From assembly GCF_017168255.1 (NCBI RefSeq), contig NZ_JABFAP010000001.1:2439450-2503449 (forward strand): 64,000 nt of DNA. Reading direction: 5' to 3'. A program made the translations under genes and the position numbers. Source of the stretch: Agrococcus sp. KRD186 (GTDB taxonomy: Bacteria > Actinomycetota > Actinomycetes > Actinomycetales > Microbacteriaceae). Position 1 is the first letter of the stretch; every line of letters starts with the position of its first letter. The notes beneath the pieces were generated by a model. It was not told where the DNA came from. It saw only the letters and a list, made by a program, of their open reading frames with translations, and ran no database searches. Of the stretch, positions 31,686 to 42,041 are shown one piece after another.

Positions 31686-33353
31686 TCACCCGACCCGGCC
31701 TGCCAGCAGCTCCAGCGCCGCCTGTGCCGCGTTGTGCCCGCCGATGCCTGAGACGGCCCCGCCACGGCGGGCGCCTGCGCCGGCCAGGAGGATTCGCGGG
31801 TGCGCCGTCTCCACGCCCCATGCCTCGGCGACCGATGTCGCCTCCTCCTCCAGCCACGGCCAGGACAGCGGGCCGTGGAAGATGTTGCCGCCCGGCATCG
31901 CCAGCGCCGCCTCGAGGTCGAGGGTGGTCTTCGTCTCGATGGCCGGGGTGGCGATGCCGTCCGGCCCCGTGCCCTGCAGCAGCAGCGGCTCGATCGGCTC
32001 GGCGAGCACCGAGTCGAGCGAGGCCAGCACGGCCCGCTCGAGCTCGCCGCGCATCCGCTCGTTGGTGTCGTCGTTCAGCAGCCGGTCGGGCACGTGCAGC
32101 CCGAAGACGGTGAGGGTGTGGGCGCCGGATGCGCGCAGCTCGTCACCGAGGATCGTCGGGTCGGTGAGGGAGTGGCAGTAGATCTCGCACGGCAGCGGTT
32201 CGGGGATGCGGCCGGCGCTCGCCGCGGCGTGCGCGGCGCCGAGCTGCGTGTAGGTCTCGTTGATGTGGAAGGTGCCGCCGAAGGCCGCCTCGGGCGAGAC
32301 ATCGCCCCGCAGCCGCGGCAGCCGCGAGAGCAGCATGTTCACCTTCACCTGCGCACCCTCGGGCCGCTGCCGGCCACCGGCGCCCTCCTCGCCCAGCAGC
32401 CCCGCCAGCACGTGCGGCGCCACAGCGGAGAGCACCAGGTCGAACTGCGCCGTCAGCTCGGTGCCGCTGGGCACACCCGCCGAGCCGGCCAGGCTGCCGC
32501 CGACCCGCTCCTCCCAGGTCACCTCGCCGTCGGGCGTCACGCCCGTGACCGTGACGCCCGTCAGGATGGTCGCGCCCGCGGCCCGCGCCGCCGCTTCGAG
32601 CTCGCCGGAGACGCGCCCCATGCCGCCGATCGGCACGTCCCAGTCGCCGGTGCCGCCGCCGATCACGTGGTAGAGCAGGCAGCGGTTCTGCTCGAGCCCG
32701 GGGTCGTCGAGCGCGGCGAACGTGCCGATCAGCGCGTCCGTCGCGATCACGCCGCGCACCAGGTCGTCCGCGACCGCGCCCTCGATGGCGTCGGCGATGG
32801 GCGCGTCGACGATCTCGGACCAGGCGGATGCGGCTCCCGCAGCCGCGCGCGCGGCGTCGCGGGTGGGCAGGGGCTCGGTGAGCGTCGGGAACAGGGCCGC
32901 CGCCAACCGGGTGGTGCGGTCATAGAAGTGACCGAACCCATCCGCATCGCCGGCGGCGCCGATGGCGGCGAAGGAGGCGCGCGTGGCGGCCTCGTCGCCG
33001 GCGTCGATGAGCAGCCCGCGGTCGCCGCCGAGCCCGGATCGGCCGCTTCCAGCGCCGTCGTGCCCATAGCCGGCTGGCACCGGCGTGTAGGAGGAGTAGC
33101 GGCGCCGAGCGAGGCGCACGTCGAGCCCCAGGTCGCGGATGATCTGCTCGGGCAGCAGGCTCACGAGGTAGCTGTAGCGCGACAGGCGGGCGTCGAGGCC
33201 GACGAAGCCGCTGGTGGAGACGGCAGCCCCGCCGACGTGCGGCAGGCGCTCGAGCACCGTCACGGCCACGCCCGCGCGGGCGAGGTAGGCGGCGGCGGTG
33301 AGGCCGTTGTGGCCTCCGCCGATGATGGCGATGCGGGGCTTGCCTGCGAGCAT
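31686..33353 (-). CDS. FAD-dependent phytoene/carotenoid desaturase-type oxidoreductase
   Basis: A 555-residue flavoprotein. The dinucleotide-binding motif IAIIGGGHNGLTAAAYLARAG is at about 7-27 (key Gly residues 11, 12, 13 and 16), ERLPHVGGAA near 35, and the C-terminal FAD-contact segment ILLAGAGARRGGAVSGIGGHNAA at about 519-541. The size matches NAD(P)/FAD-dependent proteins of the phytoene dehydrogenase group (COG1233). No carotenoid synthesis gene is nearby, so the substrate is open. ATG 33353 is preceded by GAGGAGG, unlike the leaderless genes around it. Confidence 0.85.
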   Translation of the reverse strand: MLAGKPRIAIIGGGHNGLTAAAYLARAGVAVTVLERLPHVGGAAVSTSGFVGLDARLSRYSYLVSLLPEQIIRDLGLDVRLARRRYSSYTPVPAGYGHDGAGSGRSGLGGDRGLLIDAGDEAATRASFAAIGAAGDADGFGHFYDRTTRLAAALFPTLTEPLPTRDAARAAAGAASAWSEIVDAPIADAIEGAVADDLVRGVIATDALIGTFAALDDPGLEQNRCLLYHVIGGGTGDWDVPIGGMGRVSGELEAAARAAGATILTGVTVTGVTPDGEVTWEERVGGSLAGSAGVPSGTELTAQFDLVLSAVAPHVLAGLLGEEGAGGRQRPEGAQVKVNMLLSRLPRLRGDVSPEAAFGGTFHINETYTQLGAAHAAASAGRIPEPLPCEIYCHSLTDPTILGDELRASGAHTLTVFGLHVPDRLLNDDTNERMRGELERAVLASLDSVLAEPIEPLLLQGTGPDGIATPAIETKTTLDLEAALAMPGGNIFHGPLSWPWLEEEATSVAEAWGVETAHPRILLAGAGARRGGAVSGIGGHNAAQAALELLAGRVG

Positions 33354-33425
33354 GCGGGTCCTCCTCGTTGAGCGGCCGATCCTTGGCCTGCACCCGTGCG
33401 ACGCCGGGTTCATGGCCTGCACGCA

Positions 33426-33431
33426 TACGAT
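33426..33431 (+). promoter_or_regulatory. -10 element of the putA-like gene
   Basis: TACGAT seven bases before ATG 33439, with no ribosome site between. Confidence 0.5.
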
Positions 33432-33438
33432 ATGCCGC

Positions 33439-36400
33439 ATGACCGAGCAGCCCAGGGACGAAGACTTCGACGCCCTGATCGCCGAGGGGATCCAGCAGGC
33501 CGAGCGCGAGCGGTCGTCGGGCGCGCCGGACGCCGAGCCTCCTGTGGAGAGCGACGAGGACATCCGGCAGTTGGGCCTCGACGACCCGCTGGAGGTCGTC
33601 GACGAGCAGGATGCCGACGAGACCGACGCTGACCCCGACGAGCCGGTGCGGCTGACGGTGACGCTCGACTCCGGTCCCGCCTTCGAGGTCGATGACGCGA
33701 CCTGGGCGGCCGCGGTCAGCCCCTACCAGCCGGTCGAGGTGCCGGGCGTCGCCCGCTCGGCCGCCGAACCGCCCGCGTCGGGCTGGTCGCTCTCCGCCGA
33801 CATCGTCGACGTGCCGACGGTGCAGATGGATGCGCTGGAGCTGCAGGAGGAGCTGCGGGCCGCGTCGCTGACCCCCGTGCCCGAGGCCGCGCAGGTGCCA
33901 GAGCAGTCGGTGCCGGAGGAGGGGGCGGCGTCTGCCGCCACGGCCCCCGAGGCCGCTGCGCCTGCCGAGGCCGCCACGGCCACCGAGGATGCCGCGCCTG
34001 CCGAGGACGCCGCGCCCGTCGCCACACCGGATGCGTCGCCGCTGCTGCCGCCGCAGGACACCCCCAGGATCGGCGGGCTGGCGGCAGCGGTCTCCGCCCG
34101 CGCAGCGGCCAGGGCGGCCGCCGAGGCCGAGCTGCGGGAGGCGGCGGAGTCCGCGGCGGCCCCGGCACCCGTGCCGAACGTCTCGGCCACTCCGGAGCCG
34201 AGGCCCGAGCCGGAACCGCAGCCACAGCCGGTCGTGGAGCGGGAGCCCGCGTCGCGCCCGCGAGTGCGACCCCGACCCGAGCCTGGCCCCGCACCGGAGC
34301 CGACGCCGCTGCCGGAGGCTGCGCCCGTCTCCGCTCCCATCGCCGCTGCCGAGCCCGCGCCCGCCGCCGACTCCCCCAAGGCACCCGTGCCCGCACCGGC
34401 GCCCGCACCGCTCGCCGGCCCAGCGAGCGACGACCCCTACGCGCTCACCGCCATCGAGCGGGTGCGCGCCTGGCTCAGCCCCGCATCAGACTCGGGGCGC
34501 GACAAGCGCAGCCGTGACAAGGCGGAGGAGCGTCTCGCCGGCCTGCTGAAGGATCCCCACGGGCTCGAGTTCGCGGTCGCGTTCGTCGACAAGGTCGTGC
34601 GGCCCGAGGATCCGAAGGTGGGCGCTCGCAACTTCGAGGAGCTCAGCCGCGACATCCCCGGCTTCCTCGACTGGTACCTCAAGCTCGGCGTCACGCTCGG
34701 CGGCGGCTTCGGCATCGTGAGCCCCAAGCTCGTGATGCCGATGGTGAAGAAGGCGATGCGCGAGATCGTCTCGCACCTCGTCATCGATGCGACCCCCGCC
34801 AAGCTCGCCAAGCCGCTCGCGAAGCTGCGCGAGGACGGCACCCGGCTGAGCATCACGCTGCTCGGCGAGGCGGTGCTCGGCGAGCAGGGGGCCGACGAGC
34901 GCCTCGCCGCCACCGTCGAGCTGCTCGAGCGCGACGACGTCGACGCCATCTCGGTGGCGCTGTCGCCGATGGCGCCGCAGCGGCAGCCGTGGGCGTTCGA
35001 CGAGACCGTCGAGCAGGTCGCCGAGCGACTGCTGCCGCTCTACACGGCCGCCGCGCAGGCGCAGCACGCGAAGCGCATCACGCTCGAGATGGGCGCATAC
35101 CGCGACCTCGACCTCACGATCGCGGTGTTCGAGCGCCTGCTCATGCGGCCGGAGCTCGCGAGGCTCGAGGCCGGCATCGTGCTGCAGGCCTACCTGCCCG
35201 AAGCCCTCGCTGTCTACCGCCGCCTCGCCGCCTTCGCGAAGGAGCGCCGCGCGCAGGGCGGCGCTGGCATCAGGGTGCGGCTGGTGAAGGGCGCGCACCT
35301 CGCGACGGAGCGCGTGGAGGCGACCCTGCACGGCTGGCCGCTCGCGACCCTGCCGTCGAAGGCATCGACCGACGCCAACTTCACGCGCGTGCTGCGCGAG
35401 GCGCTGCTGCCCGACAATGCCTTCGCCGTGCGCGTCGGCGTCGCGAGCCACAACCTCTTCGACCTCGCCTACGCGGCCGAGTTCGCTCGCGAGCACGGCA
35501 CGCACCAGCGCATCGACGCCGAGATGCTGCTGGGCATGGCCGCCGAGCACCGCGACGCCGTGCGCGAGGTCTTCCCGCACCTCGTGCTCACCGCGCCAGT
35601 GGTGCTGCCCGGCCAGTTCGACGCCGCCGCCGGCTACCTCATCCGCCGGCTCCAGGAGCACGCGGCCGACGAGGGCTTCGCCTCCAGCCTGCTCGAGCTC
35701 TCCGATCCCGCCGTCTTCGAGCGCGAGCGCGACCGCTTCCTCGACTCGCTCGAGCTGCTGTGCAGCGAGGACGCCGCACGGCCCGCCGGCCGCGACGGCG
35801 TGCAGCCCGCGCCGCAATCGAACCGCACCCAGGACCGCCAGGGCGACCTGCAGGCGTCGCAGACAGCCCCGCCCGCCTTCGCCAACGAGCCCGACACCGA
35901 CCCGGCGCTGGCCTCCAACCGCGACTGGGCGCGGCAGATCGTGCAGCGCGCCGGCGCCACCGAGCTCGGCAGCCGCACGCTCGAGATGAACCGCATCGAG
36001 GACTGGCCGACGCTCGAGCGCCGCATCGACCGTGCTGCGCAGGCCAGTAACGGATGGGCTGCGCTGGGTGCCGAGGGCAGGCGCGAGATCCTGCGCGAGG
36101 CGGCCACGACGCTGGGCGCCTACCGCGGCCGGCTGATCGAGATCATGCTGGCCGAGACCGGCACGACGGTCGCTGAGGCCGACCCGGAGGTGTCGGCGGC
36201 GATCGACTTCGCCCGCTTCTCCGCGGAGCGGGCGCCGCTGCTCGAGCAGCTCGACGACGCGATCCCGAAGCCGGTGGCGCTGACCGTCGTGGCGCCGCCA
36301 TGGCACGACGCGGTCGCCGCTGCCGTCGGTGGCGTGACCGCTGCGCTCGCGACCGGCTCCGCCGTCATCCTCAAGCCTGCGCCGCATGCTCGCCGCAGCG

Positions 36401-37971
36401 CCGCCGTCGTGTGCGAGGCGCTGTGGGAGGGGGGCGTGCCGCGCGAGGTGCTGGTGCTGTGCGACATGGACGAGGGCGAGGTGGCGAAGCAGCTCATCGC
36501 GCACCCCGCCGTCGGGCGGGTGCTGCTCACCGGCTCGATCGATACGGCCGAGCTGTTCGGCTCCTGGCGGCCCGAGCTGCCGCTGCTGGCCGAGACCGGC
36601 GGCAAGAACACGATCATCGTCACGCCCTCGGCCGACTTCGAGCTCGCGGTGGCAGACATCGTGCAGAGCGCCTTCGGCCACGCCGGCCAGACGCGCTCGG
36701 CCGCATCCGTCGTCATCATGGTCGGCACGGTGGGCGACTCCGAGCGGTTCCGGCGCCAGCTGGTCGACGCCGCGTCGTCGCTGCGCATCGGCTCGCCGCT
36801 CGACGCGCGCACGCACGTCGGCCCGCTCATCGAGCCGGCGCAGGGGCCGCTGCTGCGTGCGCTCACGACGCTCGAGGACGAGGAGGAGTGGCTGCTCGAG
36901 CCCAGGCAGCTCGATGCCGCCGGCCGCATCTGGTCGCCCGGCATCCGCGACGCGGTCGAGCCGGGCTCGTTCACGCACCGCACCGAGCTCCGCGGCCCGC
37001 ACCTCTCGCTCATCGAGGTCGACACGCTCGATGAGGCGATCGATGTGCAGAACGCCACCGAGCTCGGCCTCGTCGCCGGCATCCACTCGCTCGACGTGCT
37101 GGAGGTGGCGCAGTGGCTCGACGAGGTGCGTGCCGGCAGCCTGTTCGTCAACCGCGGCATCACCGGTGCCGTCGTGGGCCGGCGGCCCTCCGGCGGCTGG
37201 AAGCGCTCGCAGGTCGGGCCCGGCGCCGGCCCGGGCGGCCCGAACTCTCTCGCCACCCTGGTCGACTGGCAGCCGGTCGAGCGCGGCCCGCGCGAATCGG
37301 TGCGGCTGCACGGGCTCGACAAGCGGGTGGCCGAGCTGATCGAGGCGGCCACGCCCTCGCTCGACTTCCTCGAGTTCGACCGCGTGCGCGCCGGTGCGAA
37401 CAGCGACCAGACCGCGTGGGAGGAGGAGTTCGGCCTCGCCCGCGACGCCAGCGATCTGGGCGTCGAGCGCAACGTGCTGCGCTACCGGCCCGCCGACGTG
37501 CTGCTGCGACTGGCCGACGACGGCTCGGTCGCCGAGCTCGTGCGGCTGCTCGCCGCCGCTGCCCGCTCGCGCGCGATCGTGCGCATCTCCACCTCCGCCC
37601 CGGTGCCGAAGGGCATCGTGACGCTGTCGAGGCAGCCGATCCCGCACGTGCGCATCGAGGAGATCGTGGAGGAGACCGACGCCGGCTTCCACGCCCGGAT
37701 CGCGTCCGGCGAGGTGCTGGAGCCGGTCGAGAATGAGGATGCGCTGGGACTCGTGCGCACCACCGAGCCGCTGCGACGCATCCGGCTCATCGGCACCGAT
37801 GCGGGGCTGCGGCCGGCGCTGGCCGGCAACGCGACGGTGGCGGTGTACGACGGGCCGGTGACCGCCGAGGGGCGCATCGAGCTGCTGCCGTTCGTGCGCG
37901 AGCAGTCGGTGTCGATCACCGCGCACCGCTTCGGCACGCCCGATCAGGAGATGCTGGCGCTGCCGCTGTAG
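33439..37971 (+). CDS. PutA-like proline dehydrogenase / P5C dehydrogenase, probable pseudoenzyme
   Basis: A 1510-residue protein with PutA architecture: an acidic Ala/Pro/Glu-rich, low-complexity N-terminus (1-340), a proline dehydrogenase barrel (about 370-780), an aldehyde dehydrogenase domain (about 850-1300) and the C-terminal region found in actinobacterial PutA. Fold motifs are well kept (VRLVKGAHLATERVEATLHGWP, LLAETGGKN, VNRGITGA). The catalytic positions as I remember them are not. In the barrel, Lys is Ala507 (ISVALS), Asp is Glu550 (TLEMGAY) and Tyr is Thr718, while Arg736, Arg737 and Glu740 remain. In the dehydrogenase, Asn is His956 (PPWHDA) and the nucleophile Cys is Arg1086 (GQTRSAAS), while Glu1052 remains. 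The frame is intact, so a non-catalytic role is more likely than simple decay. Confidence 0.85.
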   Translation: MTEQPRDEDFDALIAEGIQQAERERSSGAPDAEPPVESDEDIRQLGLDDPLEVVDEQDADETDADPDEPVRLTVTLDSGPAFEVDDATWAAAVSPYQPVEVPGVARSAAEPPASGWSLSADIVDVPTVQMDALELQEELRAASLTPVPEAAQVPEQSVPEEGAASAATAPEAAAPAEAATATEDAAPAEDAAPVATPDASPLLPPQDTPRIGGLAAAVSARAAARAAAEAELREAAESAAAPAPVPNVSATPEPRPEPEPQPQPVVEREPASRPRVRPRPEPGPAPEPTPLPEAAPVSAPIAAAEPAPAADSPKAPVPAPAPAPLAGPASDDPYALTAIERVRAWLSPASDSGRDKRSRDKAEERLAGLLKDPHGLEFAVAFVDKVVRPEDPKVGARNFEELSRDIPGFLDWYLKLGVTLGGGFGIVSPKLVMPMVKKAMREIVSHLVIDATPAKLAKPLAKLREDGTRLSITLLGEAVLGEQGADERLAATVELLERDDVDAISVALSPMAPQRQPWAFDETVEQVAERLLPLYTAAAQAQHAKRITLEMGAYRDLDLTIAVFERLLMRPELARLEAGIVLQAYLPEALAVYRRLAAFAKERRAQGGAGIRVRLVKGAHLATERVEATLHGWPLATLPSKASTDANFTRVLREALLPDNAFAVRVGVASHNLFDLAYAAEFAREHGTHQRIDAEMLLGMAAEHRDAVREVFPHLVLTAPVVLPGQFDAAAGYLIRRLQEHAADEGFASSLLELSDPAVFERERDRFLDSLELLCSEDAARPAGRDGVQPAPQSNRTQDRQGDLQASQTAPPAFANEPDTDPALASNRDWARQIVQRAGATELGSRTLEMNRIEDWPTLERRIDRAAQASNGWAALGAEGRREILREAATTLGAYRGRLIEIMLAETGTTVAEADPEVSAAIDFARFSAERAPLLEQLDDAIPKPVALTVVAPPWHDAVAAAVGGVTAALATGSAVILKPAPHARRSAAVVCEALWEGGVPREVLVLCDMDEGEVAKQLIAHPAVGRVLLTGSIDTAELFGSWRPELPLLAETGGKNTIIVTPSADFELAVADIVQSAFGHAGQTRSAASVVIMVGTVGDSERFRRQLVDAASSLRIGSPLDARTHVGPLIEPAQGPLLRALTTLEDEEEWLLEPRQLDAAGRIWSPGIRDAVEPGSFTHRTELRGPHLSLIEVDTLDEAIDVQNATELGLVAGIHSLDVLEVAQWLDEVRAGSLFVNRGITGAVVGRRPSGGWKRSQVGPGAGPGGPNSLATLVDWQPVERGPRESVRLHGLDKRVAELIEAATPSLDFLEFDRVRAGANSDQTAWEEEFGLARDASDLGVERNVLRYRPADVLLRLADDGSVAELVRLLAAAARSRAIVRISTSAPVPKGIVTLSRQPIPHVRIEEIVEETDAGFHARIASGEVLEPVENEDALGLVRTTEPLRRIRLIGTDAGLRPALAGNATVAVYDGPVTAEGRIELLPFVREQSVSITAHRFGTPDQEMLALPL
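37750..37971 (+). repeat. Direct repeat flanking hipBA, left copy
   Basis: The last 222 bases of the putA-like gene, repeated at 39904-40125 with 14 differences. Eleven of the differences are synonymous. Confidence 0.95.
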
Positions 37972-38021: not shown

Positions 38022-39338
38022 CTACAGCCGGTCAGCGGGCGGCGGAGCTGACCTGCGACCGAACTGTCCGCCGTTGGGGCCGGAGGGCACCCGCGGTTGC
38101 GCAGTGTCGCTGCGCCGCGTGAGCGACGTCGGATCGGGCGCCAGCGCGCGCGCCTGCGTCATCGCATCCTCGAACCGATCTCGCATGACGTCCTGGCTGA
38201 CTTCGTCCTGGACATGCTTCGAGGCGACGGACATCGCGCTTGCGAGCACTTCCTCTGCCCGCTTGAACCATGACCGGGCCTCGGGCTCTGCGACGCCGAA
38301 GAGCGCGAGCACGTCCCGCTCGAGCATCCCGTCTGGGCGGCGGTTGCTCTCGCCGAACATGCTGAGCTGGAACGACTGCTCCTCTTCGAGCGGCGTCGGG
38401 TTGACGTCGAAGGCGGGCGAGAGGGACCAGTGGGCGCCGGATCGCAGGAAGCCGTGATTGCGGAGGTGGTCGTCGGCGTTGCCGATCAGGGATCCGAGCG
38501 CAGATCGCCGCCACAGCTCAGTCGGGTCTGCACCGTTGATCTGCGCGAACTCGGCCAGGTCGAGCCAGTCGCCGCCGTCGCCGTCTGCGGCCTCCAACGC
38601 GGTCATGGCGGACATGTAGGGGATGCGAGTCTCGCCGTTGCGGTCGAACCGGCTCAGCAGGAGGACGTTGCGCACGCGCCCGGTCTTGTCGGCGATGCGC
38701 ACCATCTTGTGCTGAGGCACCTCGATGCCCAGCGCTCGCTGGAGGACGAGTGTCGCGCCCTCCCAGCCCGGCACGTCCCAGTCGTCGTCGTTCTTCGGGA
38801 ATTTCGCCAACCACAGGCCCTGCTGGCTCGTCACGCTCGCCTTGGGACGTGCGCCGCCCAGGCTGCCGCTGGCATCGCAGAGCCGCCGCAGTTGCTGCTC
38901 TGCGATGTCGCGGCGCCCCTCGTTCACTTGGTCGGCGGTCGTGATGAGGTCGGGCAGATCGAGTTCGGTCGGCACTCCGTCTCGGCGTGGTGCGAGGGGC
39001 TCGTCGCCGTCGGAGTCGAAGAACCTCGTCGCACCTTGCCTGCCGTGGTCAGCGACGCCGAGCAGGTACTCGTGCTCGCGCAGCTTCGTGCGCTTCGCGG
39101 CGCGCTCCAGGATCTTGCGCCCCCAGCGGTCGGGAGCGCTGTCGCTGAAGGGCCCGGTGCCAGCGTGAGACAGCGGGCCAGCCACCAGCGGCAGGGCGGG
39201 CGCAAGCGCGAACGCTCCCGGGCGAGCCAGGTACGACTCGTCATAGCGGAAGGTGCCGTTGTCGCGATTGATGAACAGCGCGCCAGCGGTGACTTCCTCG
39301 CGCCCGATGGTGGTGCGGATGACGACACGCTCATGCAC
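38022..39338 (-). CDS. hipA: HipA-type serine/threonine kinase toxin
   Basis: A 438-residue protein of the HipA family, whose founding member phosphorylates glutamyl-tRNA synthetase and causes persistence. The N-terminal subdomain has GPFSDSAPDRWGR near 62. The substrate/ATP region has GGARPKASV near 159 and LWLAKFP near 173. The catalytic loop is GNADDHLRNHGF near 284 and the metal site PAFDVNP near 308. GTG 39338 overlaps the antitoxin stop by 8 bases. The C-terminal 45 residues are Ser/Arg/Pro-rich and disordered. The module lies between direct repeats of the putA-like 3' end. Confidence 0.9.
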   Translation of the reverse strand: MHERVVIRTTIGREEVTAGALFINRDNGTFRYDESYLARPGAFALAPALPLVAGPLSHAGTGPFSDSAPDRWGRKILERAAKRTKLREHEYLLGVADHGRQGATRFFDSDGDEPLAPRRDGVPTELDLPDLITTADQVNEGRRDIAEQQLRRLCDASGSLGGARPKASVTSQQGLWLAKFPKNDDDWDVPGWEGATLVLQRALGIEVPQHKMVRIADKTGRVRNVLLLSRFDRNGETRIPYMSAMTALEAADGDGGDWLDLAEFAQINGADPTELWRRSALGSLIGNADDHLRNHGFLRSGAHWSLSPAFDVNPTPLEEEQSFQLSMFGESNRRPDGMLERDVLALFGVAEPEARSWFKRAEEVLASAMSVASKHVQDEVSQDVMRDRFEDAMTQARALAPDPTSLTRRSDTAQPRVPSGPNGGQFGRRSAPPPADRL

Positions 39339-40162: not shown

Positions 40163-41005
40163 GTGGCATTTCGGGAACTGCGACCAGAAGACCTCGATCG
40201 CGCAGCGAGCTGGTTGGTCGACGGCGGGTTCCGTGCAGACCGATGGCGCGACGATCACACCCGGTCTGCAGTCGCCAGCGATGCAGGGCGCGTGATCGCT
40301 GCGGGGATGATCTGGACATCACGAGTGCACGGAGACCGGTACTGGGTGCGCATCATCGTTGAGCCCGACCGGCGACGGCAGGGGCATGGTCGAGCGATGC
40401 TCGCACATCTCTCGACGCTGCGCCCTGCCGAGCTGCCGTTCATGGCCCGCGGATTCTTCGATTCGGATGAGATGGCGTTTGCTGATGGTCTGGGCGCACA
40501 CACGATCCAGGTGGTACCGCCGGCCCGGATTGCGACGAGCAGTCGAACGAGGCTTCGCGCGCTCGACTCCGTCGTGTCGGCTGGCGGGTTGACGCGGGCG
40601 ACGATCGAGGCAGCGAACGCCGAGACGTATGAGTGGGTGCATGCCGCTTGGAGTCCCGTCGGACCGGGTTTCGAGAGCGCGCTCAACGAAGATCTCTGGG
40701 ATGAGCTCGACCCGCAGGCGACGTCGGTCGCGCTCGACGCCGACGGCCGGATCTTGGCGATGGCGATGGGTTACCAGGATTCGAGTCCGCCCGTCGTGAC
40801 GGCTGAGACCGTTCGGATCGATCAGGAAGGCGGCGAACGGCTCGTCGAGGCCTGCATCCGACGCACGCTCGACGTCTACGCGGAGCGAGGCGTCGACGAG
40901 GTTGAATTCGACGGGCACGTCACGGATCCCCACTTCATGCCGATATGGGCGCGACTGCAGCCCGCCGGTGAGTGGTTCCGGCTGGTGGAGGTCCCCGCTT
41001 CCTGA
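40163..41005 (+). CDS. GNAT-family acetyltransferase, two-lobed
   Basis: A 280-residue protein. The first half carries an acetyl-CoA-type loop (IIVEPDRRRQGHGRAMLAHL near residues 65-84, in RRQGHGRAM). The second half repeats the strand-helix order without a clear loop, as in tandem GNAT proteins. Codon use is less GC-biased than its neighbours, suggesting recent gain. The substrate is unknown. Confidence 0.78.
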   Translation: MAFRELRPEDLDRAASWLVDGGFRADRWRDDHTRSAVASDAGRVIAAGMIWTSRVHGDRYWVRIIVEPDRRRQGHGRAMLAHLSTLRPAELPFMARGFFDSDEMAFADGLGAHTIQVVPPARIATSSRTRLRALDSVVSAGGLTRATIEAANAETYEWVHAAWSPVGPGFESALNEDLWDELDPQATSVALDADGRILAMAMGYQDSSPPVVTAETVRIDQEGGERLVEACIRRTLDVYAERGVDEVEFDGHVTDPHFMPIWARLQPAGEWFRLVEVPAS

Positions 41006-41048: not shown

Positions 41049-42041
41049 ATGCGGTACGGATACAAGGCCAGCGCCGAGCAGTTCTCGCCGAGCGAGCTGC
41101 TCGAGCTCGTGCAGCTCGCCGAGCAGGTGGGCCTCGACAGCGCGTTCATCAGCGACCACCTGCAGCCCTGGCGGCATGACGAGGGGCACGCGCCCAACGC
41201 GGTCGCCTGGCTCGGCATGGCGCTCGAGCGCACCAAGACCATCACGCTCGGCACCTCGGTGCTCACGCCCACGCTGCGCTACGAGCCGGCGGTCGTGGCG
41301 CAGCAGTTCGCGACGCTCGGGCAGGTGCACCCGGGGCGCCTCATTCTGGGCGTCGGCACCGGCGAGGCGCTCAACGAGCAGATCATCGGCGTCGAGTGGC
41401 CGGAGCTGAAGGAGCGCTTCGCCCGTCTGCGCGAGGCCGTGCGCCTCATCGACCGGCTCTGGCGCGAGGATCGCGTCGAGTTCGAGGGCGACTTCTACTC
41501 GACCTTCGGCGCCACCATCTACGACCGGCCCGAGACGCCCATCCCCATCTACGTCGCCGGCGGCGGCCCCGCCACGACGCGTTACGCCGCGCGCTCGGCC
41601 GCCGGCCACATCTGCACCTCCGGCAAGGGCGACGAGTACTACCGCGACACGATCGTCGCGAACCTCGAGGAGGGGCTCGAGAAGTCCGGCCGCGACTCGG
41701 GCGAGGTCGACCGCATGATCGAGATCAAGGTCTCCTACGACCGCGACGCCGACCGGGCGCTCGAGAACACCCGCTTCTGGGCGGCCCTCTCGCTCTCGCA
41801 GGAGCAGAAGCACGCGGTGCACGACCCGATCGAGATGCAGCGCCTCGCCGACGAGCTGCCGATCGAGCAGGTGGCGAAGCGCTGGATCGTGGGGGCGGAT
41901 GCGTCGGCCGTCGCGGGCGCGATCGGCCACTACGCAGAGCTCGGGTTCACCCATCTGGTGTTCCACGGCCCCGGCAACGACCAGCGCCGCTTCCTGGAGC
42001 AGTTCGCCGAGGACGTGCTGCCGCTGCTGCCCGCGCGCTGA
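41049..42041 (+). CDS. fgd: F420-dependent glucose-6-phosphate dehydrogenase
   Basis: Oxidises glucose 6-phosphate to 6-phosphogluconolactone while reducing coenzyme F420. The 330 residues closely follow the mycobacterial enzyme as I recall it: YGYKASAEQFSP at the start, SDHLQPWRHDEGHAP near 37, LGTSVLTPTLRYEPAVVAQ near 63, GVGTGEALNE near 100, ICTSGKGDEYY near 190, AKRWIVGAD near 277 and a conserved end (GNDQRRFLEQF). Few other LLM enzymes share all of these. It supplies reduced F420, for example to the PPOX-type protein encoded at 26768-27181. Confidence 0.9.
   Translation: MRYGYKASAEQFSPSELLELVQLAEQVGLDSAFISDHLQPWRHDEGHAPNAVAWLGMALERTKTITLGTSVLTPTLRYEPAVVAQQFATLGQVHPGRLILGVGTGEALNEQIIGVEWPELKERFARLREAVRLIDRLWREDRVEFEGDFYSTFGATIYDRPETPIPIYVAGGGPATTRYAARSAAGHICTSGKGDEYYRDTIVANLEEGLEKSGRDSGEVDRMIEIKVSYDRDADRALENTRFWAALSLSQEQKHAVHDPIEMQRLADELPIEQVAKRWIVGADASAVAGAIGHYAELGFTHLVFHGPGNDQRRFLEQFAEDVLPLLPAR

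Follow-up and report, generated by a model that had tools for sequence, protein, structure and literature searches.

Within a 64,000-nucleotide stretch of the Agrococcus sp. KRD186 genome (contig NZ_JABFAP010000001.1, positions 2,439,450 to 2,503,449; hereafter the window), a forward-strand frame at 33439-37971 stays open for 1510 codons before a TAG, as the original prediction, made from the letters alone, had reported. Agrococcus is a member of the Microbacteriaceae. The product of this frame, PutA-L, is a PutA by sequence family: a proline dehydrogenase (PRODH) barrel is followed by an aldehyde dehydrogenase domain, here termed glutamate semialdehyde (GSAL) dehydrogenase or GSALDH, in a single chain, and both score above their Pfam cut-offs (PF01619 Pro_dh, 176 bits against 27; PF00171 Aldedh, 258 bits against 23). 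These are the only two Pfam families found across the 1510 residues at E 0.001, with no ribbon-helix-helix or other DNA-binding domain among them. Against the NCBIfam PutA equivalog NF008869 the protein scores 296 bits, the cut-off being 747, a value that active actinobacterial PutAs may or may not reach. From the N-terminus, the chain consists of an extension of ~340 residues, the PRODH barrel, the aldehyde dehydrogenase domain and a C-terminal domain:

33439-37971, forward strand: PutA-L, a 1510-residue PutA-like protein and probable pseudoenzyme, whole frame (from the frame, Pfam and alignment with the solved structure 5ux5)
33439-34449, forward strand: long N-terminal extension, residues 1-337, acidic and then Pro/Ala-rich
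34810-35682, forward strand: proline dehydrogenase barrel, residues 458-748, with its pocket dismantled (Pfam, residue comparisons)
36016-37263, forward strand: GSALDH (aldehyde dehydrogenase) domain, residues 860-1275 (Pfam)
37264-37968, forward strand: C-terminal domain, residues 1276-1510, without detectable relaxation in copies that have lost catalytic residues

We aligned PutA-L with 5ux5, the PutA of Corynebacterium freiburgense, over the PRODH and GSALDH parts. The Lys, Asp, Tyr, Asn and Cys of 5ux5 correspond to Ala507, Glu550, Thr718, His956 and Arg1086 in PutA-L, and 14 intact orthologues from the same genus carry the intact residues at the same columns. All five catalytic substitutions named in the original prediction are thus real, and the alignment places no intact Lys, Asp or Cys at the catalytic columns; misalignment was rejected because intact motifs stand at those columns in the same-genus orthologues. 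Neither the Lys and Tyr/Asp that mark an active PRODH (Ala507, Thr718 and Glu550 here) nor the Cys and oxyanion Asn that mark an active GSALDH (Arg1086 and His956) are present. Further changes are Asn471Ser, Asn473Thr, Tyr503Ala, Phe546Arg, Asn548Thr, Phe957Asp and Lys1085Thr, at columns that are invariant in 135 of 135 family PutAs scored intact. These "alive" rows were defined by six residues (507, 550, 718, 956, 1052 and 1086), so that invariance at the six is a matter of definition, and that at the other seven columns is not. The general-base Glu1052 and Arg736/Arg737 are retained.

In SmPutA, the substrate is bound by Lys265, Tyr473, Arg488 and Arg489, the oxyanion hole is made by Asn707, Phe708 lies beside the substrate chain, Glu810 serves acyl-enzyme hydrolysis and Cys844 is the nucleophile (PMC12398946); the ligand carboxylate is held by the residue preceding the Cys (PMC5786444). 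These residues were assigned to PutA-L columns by motif, not by superposition:

34849-34857, forward strand: Ser471 and Thr473 (Asn in all intact PutA), on a predicted barrel strand
34945-34959, forward strand: Ala503 (Tyr in intact PutA) to Ala507 (catalytic Lys; SmPutA Lys265 by motif), on a predicted barrel strand
35074-35088, forward strand: Arg546 (Phe), Thr548 (Asn) and Glu550 (Asp), on a predicted barrel strand
35590-35592, forward strand: Thr718 (Tyr in intact PutA; SmPutA Tyr473 by motif)
36304-36309, forward strand: His956 (oxyanion-hole Asn; SmPutA Asn707) and Asp957 (aromatic-box Phe; SmPutA Phe708), by motif
36691-36696, forward strand: Thr1085 (carboxylate-anchoring Lys/Arg) and Arg1086 (nucleophile Cys; SmPutA Cys844 by motif)

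An AlphaFold model of PutA-L (mean predicted local distance difference test score 79.4, predicted template modelling score 0.79) matches 5ux5 best, with a template modelling score of 0.90 by target length and 39% identity by structure alignment. In the model, 471/473, 503/507, 546/548/550 and 718 lie on barrel strands in steps of two or four, and their side chains would therefore probably face the interior. The same residues are lost, in part to other letters, in G001 (best segment 88% identical) and G002 (82%), which rules out a sequencing slip in the window genome.

A second, short putA lies elsewhere in the window genome (G000:C1:2940530-2943973). Its product is 44-48% identical to PutA-L over the shared part and intact at all six residues, the five catalytic ones and Glu1052. 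Both an intact second putA and relatives with shared losses, which the original prediction had proposed to look for, are thus present. Among 24 Agrococcus genomes, 21 have two or three PRODH matches, and G014, G018 and G023 have a single match each, of the long form. Nine of the 23 readable long copies are dead (G000, G001, G002, G003, G004, G015, G017, G020 and G021), all of them without Lys507, Tyr718 and Asn956 and with varied replacements of Lys507 (Ala, Ser, Thr, Arg, Gln); the other 14 show no loss at any of the six residues. The long copy of G012, which is in pieces, is intact as far as it can be read, and the short copies are intact at those sites they cover. The long frame of G017 starts at a contig end, with its N-terminus outside the sequence. 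Fragmentary G012 pieces, the second short copy of G021 and the incomplete short copy of G019 were left out of the trees; the count of invariant columns likewise omits the G012 pieces and the short copy of G019. Contig C3 of G021, a genome with a contamination estimate of 8%, carries two short putA copies (L075, L082) with equal search scores; they may represent a duplication or an assembly artefact.

On the tree, the nine dead Agrococcus copies need five losses, four of them forced by well-supported branches. The number of losses does not change when every column invariant in the intact PutAs is removed before tree building, a single dead clade then appearing in 0 of 200 bootstrap trees, and the approximately unbiased (AU) test rejects a topology in which the dead copies are held as one clade (p = 0.000226). 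A single ancestral loss is rejected by the trees with and without the trait columns together with the AU test.

The youngest case, the long copy of G015, is nested among the intact copies of G010 and G011 and shares 96% of its residues (1111/1159) with that of G011. From residue 338 onward, 27 codons carry residue changes found in G015 only, including Asn471Asp, Asn473Ser, Tyr503Ser, Lys507Thr, Phe546Pro, Tyr718Ser, Asn956Ser and Lys1085Gln; over the whole alignment its private changes comprise 50 nonsynonymous and 93 synonymous ones. Four of the 11 active-site residues defined from the literature differ, compared with 4 of the 286 remaining invariant residues (Fisher, 6.7e-5). The same enrichment is seen in G021 (6/11 against 13/286) and G003 (6/11 against 23/286). 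We saw no sign that recombination had brought a dead block into G015 from any sampled donor, to which the comparison is confined: the loss codons stand amid sister-like codons, and in 40-codon windows across nine sequences the nearest to G015 is G010 or G011 in all but two, from residue 658 (G013 slightly nearer) and from 778 (a tie with G003 and G009).

Dead PutAs also occur outside the genus. We searched 149 genomes of the family, three of them Agrococcus, and read 107 higher-scoring, mostly full-length matches, a survey that excludes split, lower-scoring or unlisted matches. Five of the 107 other-genus Microbacteriaceae PutAs read are dead, in G149 (L112), G051 (L130), G117 (L115), G055 (L159) and G122 (L160), each having lost two or more of the six residues, Lys507 always among them. 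We built a FastTree phylogeny of 149 proteins, which divides them into groups of 64 and 85. The 64 (the L clade) include all 14 dead copies and the 85 none, the latter being the side on which the short PutA of the window genome falls; seven losses are forced by branches with local support of at least 95 (local support only). All 14 dead genomes also hold an intact PutA. Among the matches listed, L-clade copies are dead in 14 of 32 genomes with a second PutA and in 0 of 32 without one (Fisher 2e-5, a hand tally that counts related genomes as independent), and the remaining 18 of the 32 two-copy genomes keep both PutAs active by residues. We read a further 29 sequences, two from this family and the other 27 from elsewhere in the order, and found no loss at the six defining residues; two of the 29 have a single change at another pocket position (L204 Tyr503His, L214 Phe546Leu).

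From residue 338 onward, the nine dead Agrococcus copies contain no stops, against 22.6 expected if nonsynonymous change were neutral, an expectation derived from four-fold-site rates that is rough and unpolarised. The ratio of nonsynonymous to synonymous rates (dN/dS) by the NG86 method over residues 338-1510 is 0.27-0.53 for dead-dead pairs, 0.16-0.51 for dead-intact pairs, 0.12-0.31 for intact pairs and likewise 0.12-0.31 for the short copies; dead pairs in two other genera give 0.26 and 0.55. The frameshifts, stops and neutral evolution that define a pseudogene are therefore not what we observe (0 stops against 22.6, dN/dS below 1), and two features of a pseudoenzyme are: catalytic residues lost within a recognisable fold, and purifying selection after the loss.

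Selection is not relaxed evenly along the chain. In disjoint pairs, the ratio of amino-acid to synonymous differences in the catalytic domains is 289:187 for dead against 226:563 for intact copies. In the same type of comparison, relaxation is undetected in the C-terminal domain (60:64 against 148:208, p = 0.21) and in the linker (39:33 against 73:82, p = 0.39). In the two other genera, PRODH ratios are 0.40 and 0.56 in dead pairs against 0.02 and 0.22 in intact second copies, and C-terminal ratios are 0.14 and 0.37 against 0.20 and 0.43; dead G149 compared with intact G092 gives 0.18 against 0.05 for PRODH, 0.09 against 0.08 for GSALDH and 0.16 against 0.23 for the C-terminal domain. The C-terminal comparisons in Agrococcus and in the other genera indicate that relaxation spares this domain.

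The residues that go are a distinct set. Of 297 columns invariant across 14 intact long and 19 short copies, six (Asn471, Tyr503, Lys507, Phe546, Tyr718 and Asn956) are lost in all nine dead Agrococcus copies. Arg614, Lys617, His671, Asn672, Tyr733, Arg736, Arg737 and Glu740, several of which we take to be contacts of flavin adenine dinucleotide (FAD), are kept in all nine. By residue type, 0 of 108 Trp and 3 of 207 Arg invariant cells are changed, and about half of those for Asn, Lys, Tyr and Ile. Across the family, 120 of 264 columns that are at least 97% conserved in the 135 alive rows are unchanged in all 14 dead copies. Lys507 is lost in 14/14 (to Ala, Ser, Arg, Thr, Gln or Pro) and Tyr718 in 11/14 (to Thr, Ser, Ala, Gly or Arg), Asn548 has become Thr in 11/14, and Lys617 is kept in 11/14, with some flavin-side residues lost in other genera. 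The original prediction that both activities have lost their catalytic residues stands for PutA-L itself and, for the PRODH Lys, in all 14 dead copies; for the GSALDH Cys it does not extend to all of them, that residue being present in seven of the 14. Because Lys507 is gone throughout and Cys1086 is kept in half, loss of GSALDH seems to follow loss of PRODH.

Third-position GC is 0.94-0.96 in four of five genes measured and 0.90 in G011, whose frame includes upstream sequence. At four-fold sites on the G015 branch, A/T to G/C changes number 3/8 and the reverse 18/727; other branches give 2/3, 3/4, 2/2, 2/2 and 1/1, with 0/4 each on G000 and G001, all of these being counts that rest on few sites. 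Such GC pressure can account for the early disappearance of Lys, Asn, Tyr and Phe codons once they are freed. Where the invariant residue is AT-rich, 43 of 54 cells in the active sites are changed, compared with 141 of 378 elsewhere; for the remaining invariant residues the corresponding counts are 13 of 45 and 125 of 2196. The active-site excess appears in both classes, and GC pressure is therefore no explanation for the freeing of these sites in the first place.

Immediately upstream of putA-L lies one further element:

33424-33434, forward strand: CATACGATATG, a promoter-like element (predicted function) with a -10-like hexamer, TACGAT, ending 7 nucleotides before the ATG

CATACGATATG is an inverted repeat (CATA-CGA-TATG) that overlaps the hexamer and adjoins the start codon, an arrangement that would fit a leaderless mRNA. 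Of the 23 long-paralogue loci 16 carry it, among them the window and 7 of the 9 dead loci, and none of the 21 short-paralogue loci does; in 13 loci it is seen directly before the start, as it is in the window, and its position supports the start at 33439. G004 retains only CATACGAT, the left part of the element, which fits a -10 box better than an operator. No regulon sharing the palindrome was found, the exact motif occurring once in the whole genome. The N-terminal extension itself contains short conserved motifs (DDDFDALIAEGI, VVDEQDAD, SGPAFEVDDATW, PTVQMD and PRIGGLAAAVSARAAAK) that are kept in those long rows that could be aligned, 12 of 24 being alignable from a recognised start. At 27 other-genus loci, the in-frame stretch upstream measures 22-84 residues in 21 and 110-274 residues in six, and a D[DE]FD motif is absent from all 27 stretches.

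Divergent from putA-L, the window encodes an FAD-dependent oxidoreductase with a weak CrtO-like match (31686-33338, reverse strand). A divergent FAD oxidoreductase lies upstream in 19 of 22 other Agrococcus long loci, and in other genera 6 of 27 loci have a relative no more than 1.5 kb from putA, one of them dead (L112); a functional link with putA-L is possible. Downstream, at 41049-42041 (forward strand), is an F420-dependent glucose-6-phosphate dehydrogenase (TIGR03554, above cut-off), and a relative, an LLM oxidoreductase, is found downstream in 17 of the 22 other loci. Because neighbours on both sides are kept and the species fall into much the same groups on the tree of short copies, vertical inheritance is likely. 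Between putA-L and the dehydrogenase, the window carries a HipA-like gene (38022-39338, reverse strand; PF07804, PF13657) and a GNAT acetyltransferase gene (40163-41005, forward strand), neither with a match in the 22 other long-paralogue loci, and the two therefore look like an insertion in the window genome. Plasmid carriage was considered and rejected, a plasmid collection giving no near match.

We conclude that PutA-L is probably a pseudoenzyme, in which PRODH and GSAL dehydrogenase catalysis would have been lost and a full-length, folded protein kept for a purpose other than chemistry. The original prediction had read it in this way, and the alignment, the second intact putA, the shared losses in relatives and the continued selection all support that reading. 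To judge from sequence comparison, PutA-L is probably a repeatedly evolved pseudoenzyme retained as a structural or assembly subunit; granting that it is a pseudoenzyme, an assembly role specifically has a little under an even chance. Among the regulatory, flavin-sensing and structural roles first proposed, the structural one is favoured by the evidence, since the C-terminal domain is still constrained. Flavin binding may persist, since residues taken as flavin contacts are kept in 9/9 dead Agrococcus copies; proline sensing is disfavoured, because the proline-contacting Lys and Tyr are lost in 14/14 and 11/14.

As a tentative account, to which we give slightly less than half our belief, an ancestral non-catalytic function of the L clade, one of two ancient lineages of PutA in the Microbacteriaceae, would reside in the scaffold and the C-terminal domain and outrank the chemistry, so that the active sites were shed at least seven times on the present tree where a second PutA oxidises proline, and the inactive protein may assemble with and tune the active one. 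The active second PutA would have made catalysis by the L copy redundant. Catalysis thus freed would drift, GC-biased mutation stripping the pockets first of their AT-rich codons, those for Lys, Asn, Tyr and Phe, in PRODH before GSALDH. The scaffold would remain selected for a non-catalytic job, most likely protein-protein assembly through the C-terminal domain, to which the long N-terminal tail may also contribute in Agrococcus; the assembly might be a homo-oligomeric scaffold, or PutA-L might be a partner subunit of the active PutA.

Several observations weigh against this interpretation. The rate of evolution is higher in dead than in intact copies, and relaxation extends beyond the pockets, for it also affects the helical segment ahead of the barrel (residues 338-457; 40:39 against 39:89, p = 0.005). 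GC pressure, which acts on AT-rich codons wherever they lie, accounts for part of the loss, invariant Lys, Asn, Tyr, Phe and Ile outside the active sites being changed in the 141 of 378 cells given above. PutA-L keeps Glu1052, as do 8 of the 14 dead copies, and Cys1086 persists in seven of the 14; some dead copies may therefore have residual GSALDH activity. A search for a conserved patch specific to the L clade that could mark an interface yielded only one column above thresholds. Finally, AlphaFold is insensitive to point changes, and the PutA-L model is therefore no test of folding.

The faster evolution of dead copies, helical segment included, is what would be expected of a dying gene, in which redundancy had ended selection and the frame was still open because stops are rare in a GC-rich genome and little time had passed. 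The loss of mainly AT-rich codons, as mutation alone would favour at this third-position GC, and the confinement of all 14 losses to genomes with a second PutA fit that explanation too. It is nonetheless quite unlikely, given zero stops where 22.6 are roughly expected, dead pairs still at dN/dS 0.26-0.55 with a C-terminal domain not detectably relaxed, nearly untouched Trp and Arg columns and a promoter-like element kept at 7 of 9 dead loci. A doubtful alternative is that selection actively favoured switching the second PutA off, two active copies being harmful, with the body kept for dosage or complex stoichiometry. The concentrated changes of G015 (4/11 against 4/286) and the six pocket sites hit in all five Agrococcus lineages are in its favour; however, with A/T to G/C changes at 3/8 four-fold sites in G015, AT-rich codons may be lost rapidly once freed, with no need for positive selection, and 18 of 32 two-copy genomes keep both PutAs active.

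PutA-L might instead bind FAD, and perhaps a carboxylate, and swap partners according to flavin state, much as PutAs of other bacteria alternate between enzymatic and regulatory states. Arg614, Lys617, His671, Asn672, Arg736, Arg737 and Glu740, kept in all nine dead Agrococcus copies, would suit such a sensor, their FAD or carboxylate role being one that we assume in part from E. coli PutA. It draws in part on SmPutA Arg488/Arg489 (PMC12398946), and Ralstonia PutA is reported to be a regulator that senses proline, FAD and NAD (PMC9132996). We consider a sensor unlikely, because the proline-contacting Lys and Tyr are so widely lost, Pfam detects no DNA-binding domain and flavin-side residues are partly lost in other genera (Lys617 kept in 11/14). 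The enrichment of changes in the active sites and the recurrent Asn548Thr replacement (11/14) could also reflect pockets rebuilt for another substrate, but the replacements of Lys507 and Tyr718 differ by lineage, no common new catalytic set is apparent and every dead genome has an intact PutA, which makes a new enzymatic activity very improbable.

PutA, moonlighting PutAs and pseudoenzymes are already known; no description of a PutA pseudoenzyme, or of a repeatedly evolved one, was found in the open-licence literature. Recurrent loss with the body under selection suggests a job that does not need PutA-L chemistry. The system offers parallel inactivations of different ages in one protein with two active sites, with a 96%-identical intact sister as control for the youngest case, and thereby makes a general question testable, namely which functions a metabolic enzyme has apart from its reaction and which residues are responsible for them. 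For annotation there is a warning too, as some proteins of the family that would be named bifunctional proline catabolic enzymes are probably inactive.

Compared with known systems, PutA-L is closest to bifunctional PutA, sharing domain order, predicted fold and 39% identity with 5ux5, its nearest solved structure, from which it differs by replacement of the Lys, Asp, Tyr, Asn and Cys and by the ~340-residue N-terminal extension. Like the trifunctional PutAs of E. coli and Ralstonia, which are both enzyme and DNA-binding regulator, it presumably has a role beyond catalysis; unlike them, it has no ribbon-helix-helix in the Pfam scan, and catalysis is lost rather than joined to regulation. The short PutA of the same genome is the same two-domain enzyme, but has all six catalytic residues and belongs to the side of the tree free of dead members. 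Known pseudoenzymes include the activator of S-adenosylmethionine decarboxylase and an inactive variant of ALDH2 (PMC10211241). Like these, PutA-L keeps its fold, loses catalytic residues and exists beside an active paralogue, whereas it differs from them in losing two active sites per chain and in a loss that the tree shows at least seven times within a single bacterial family.

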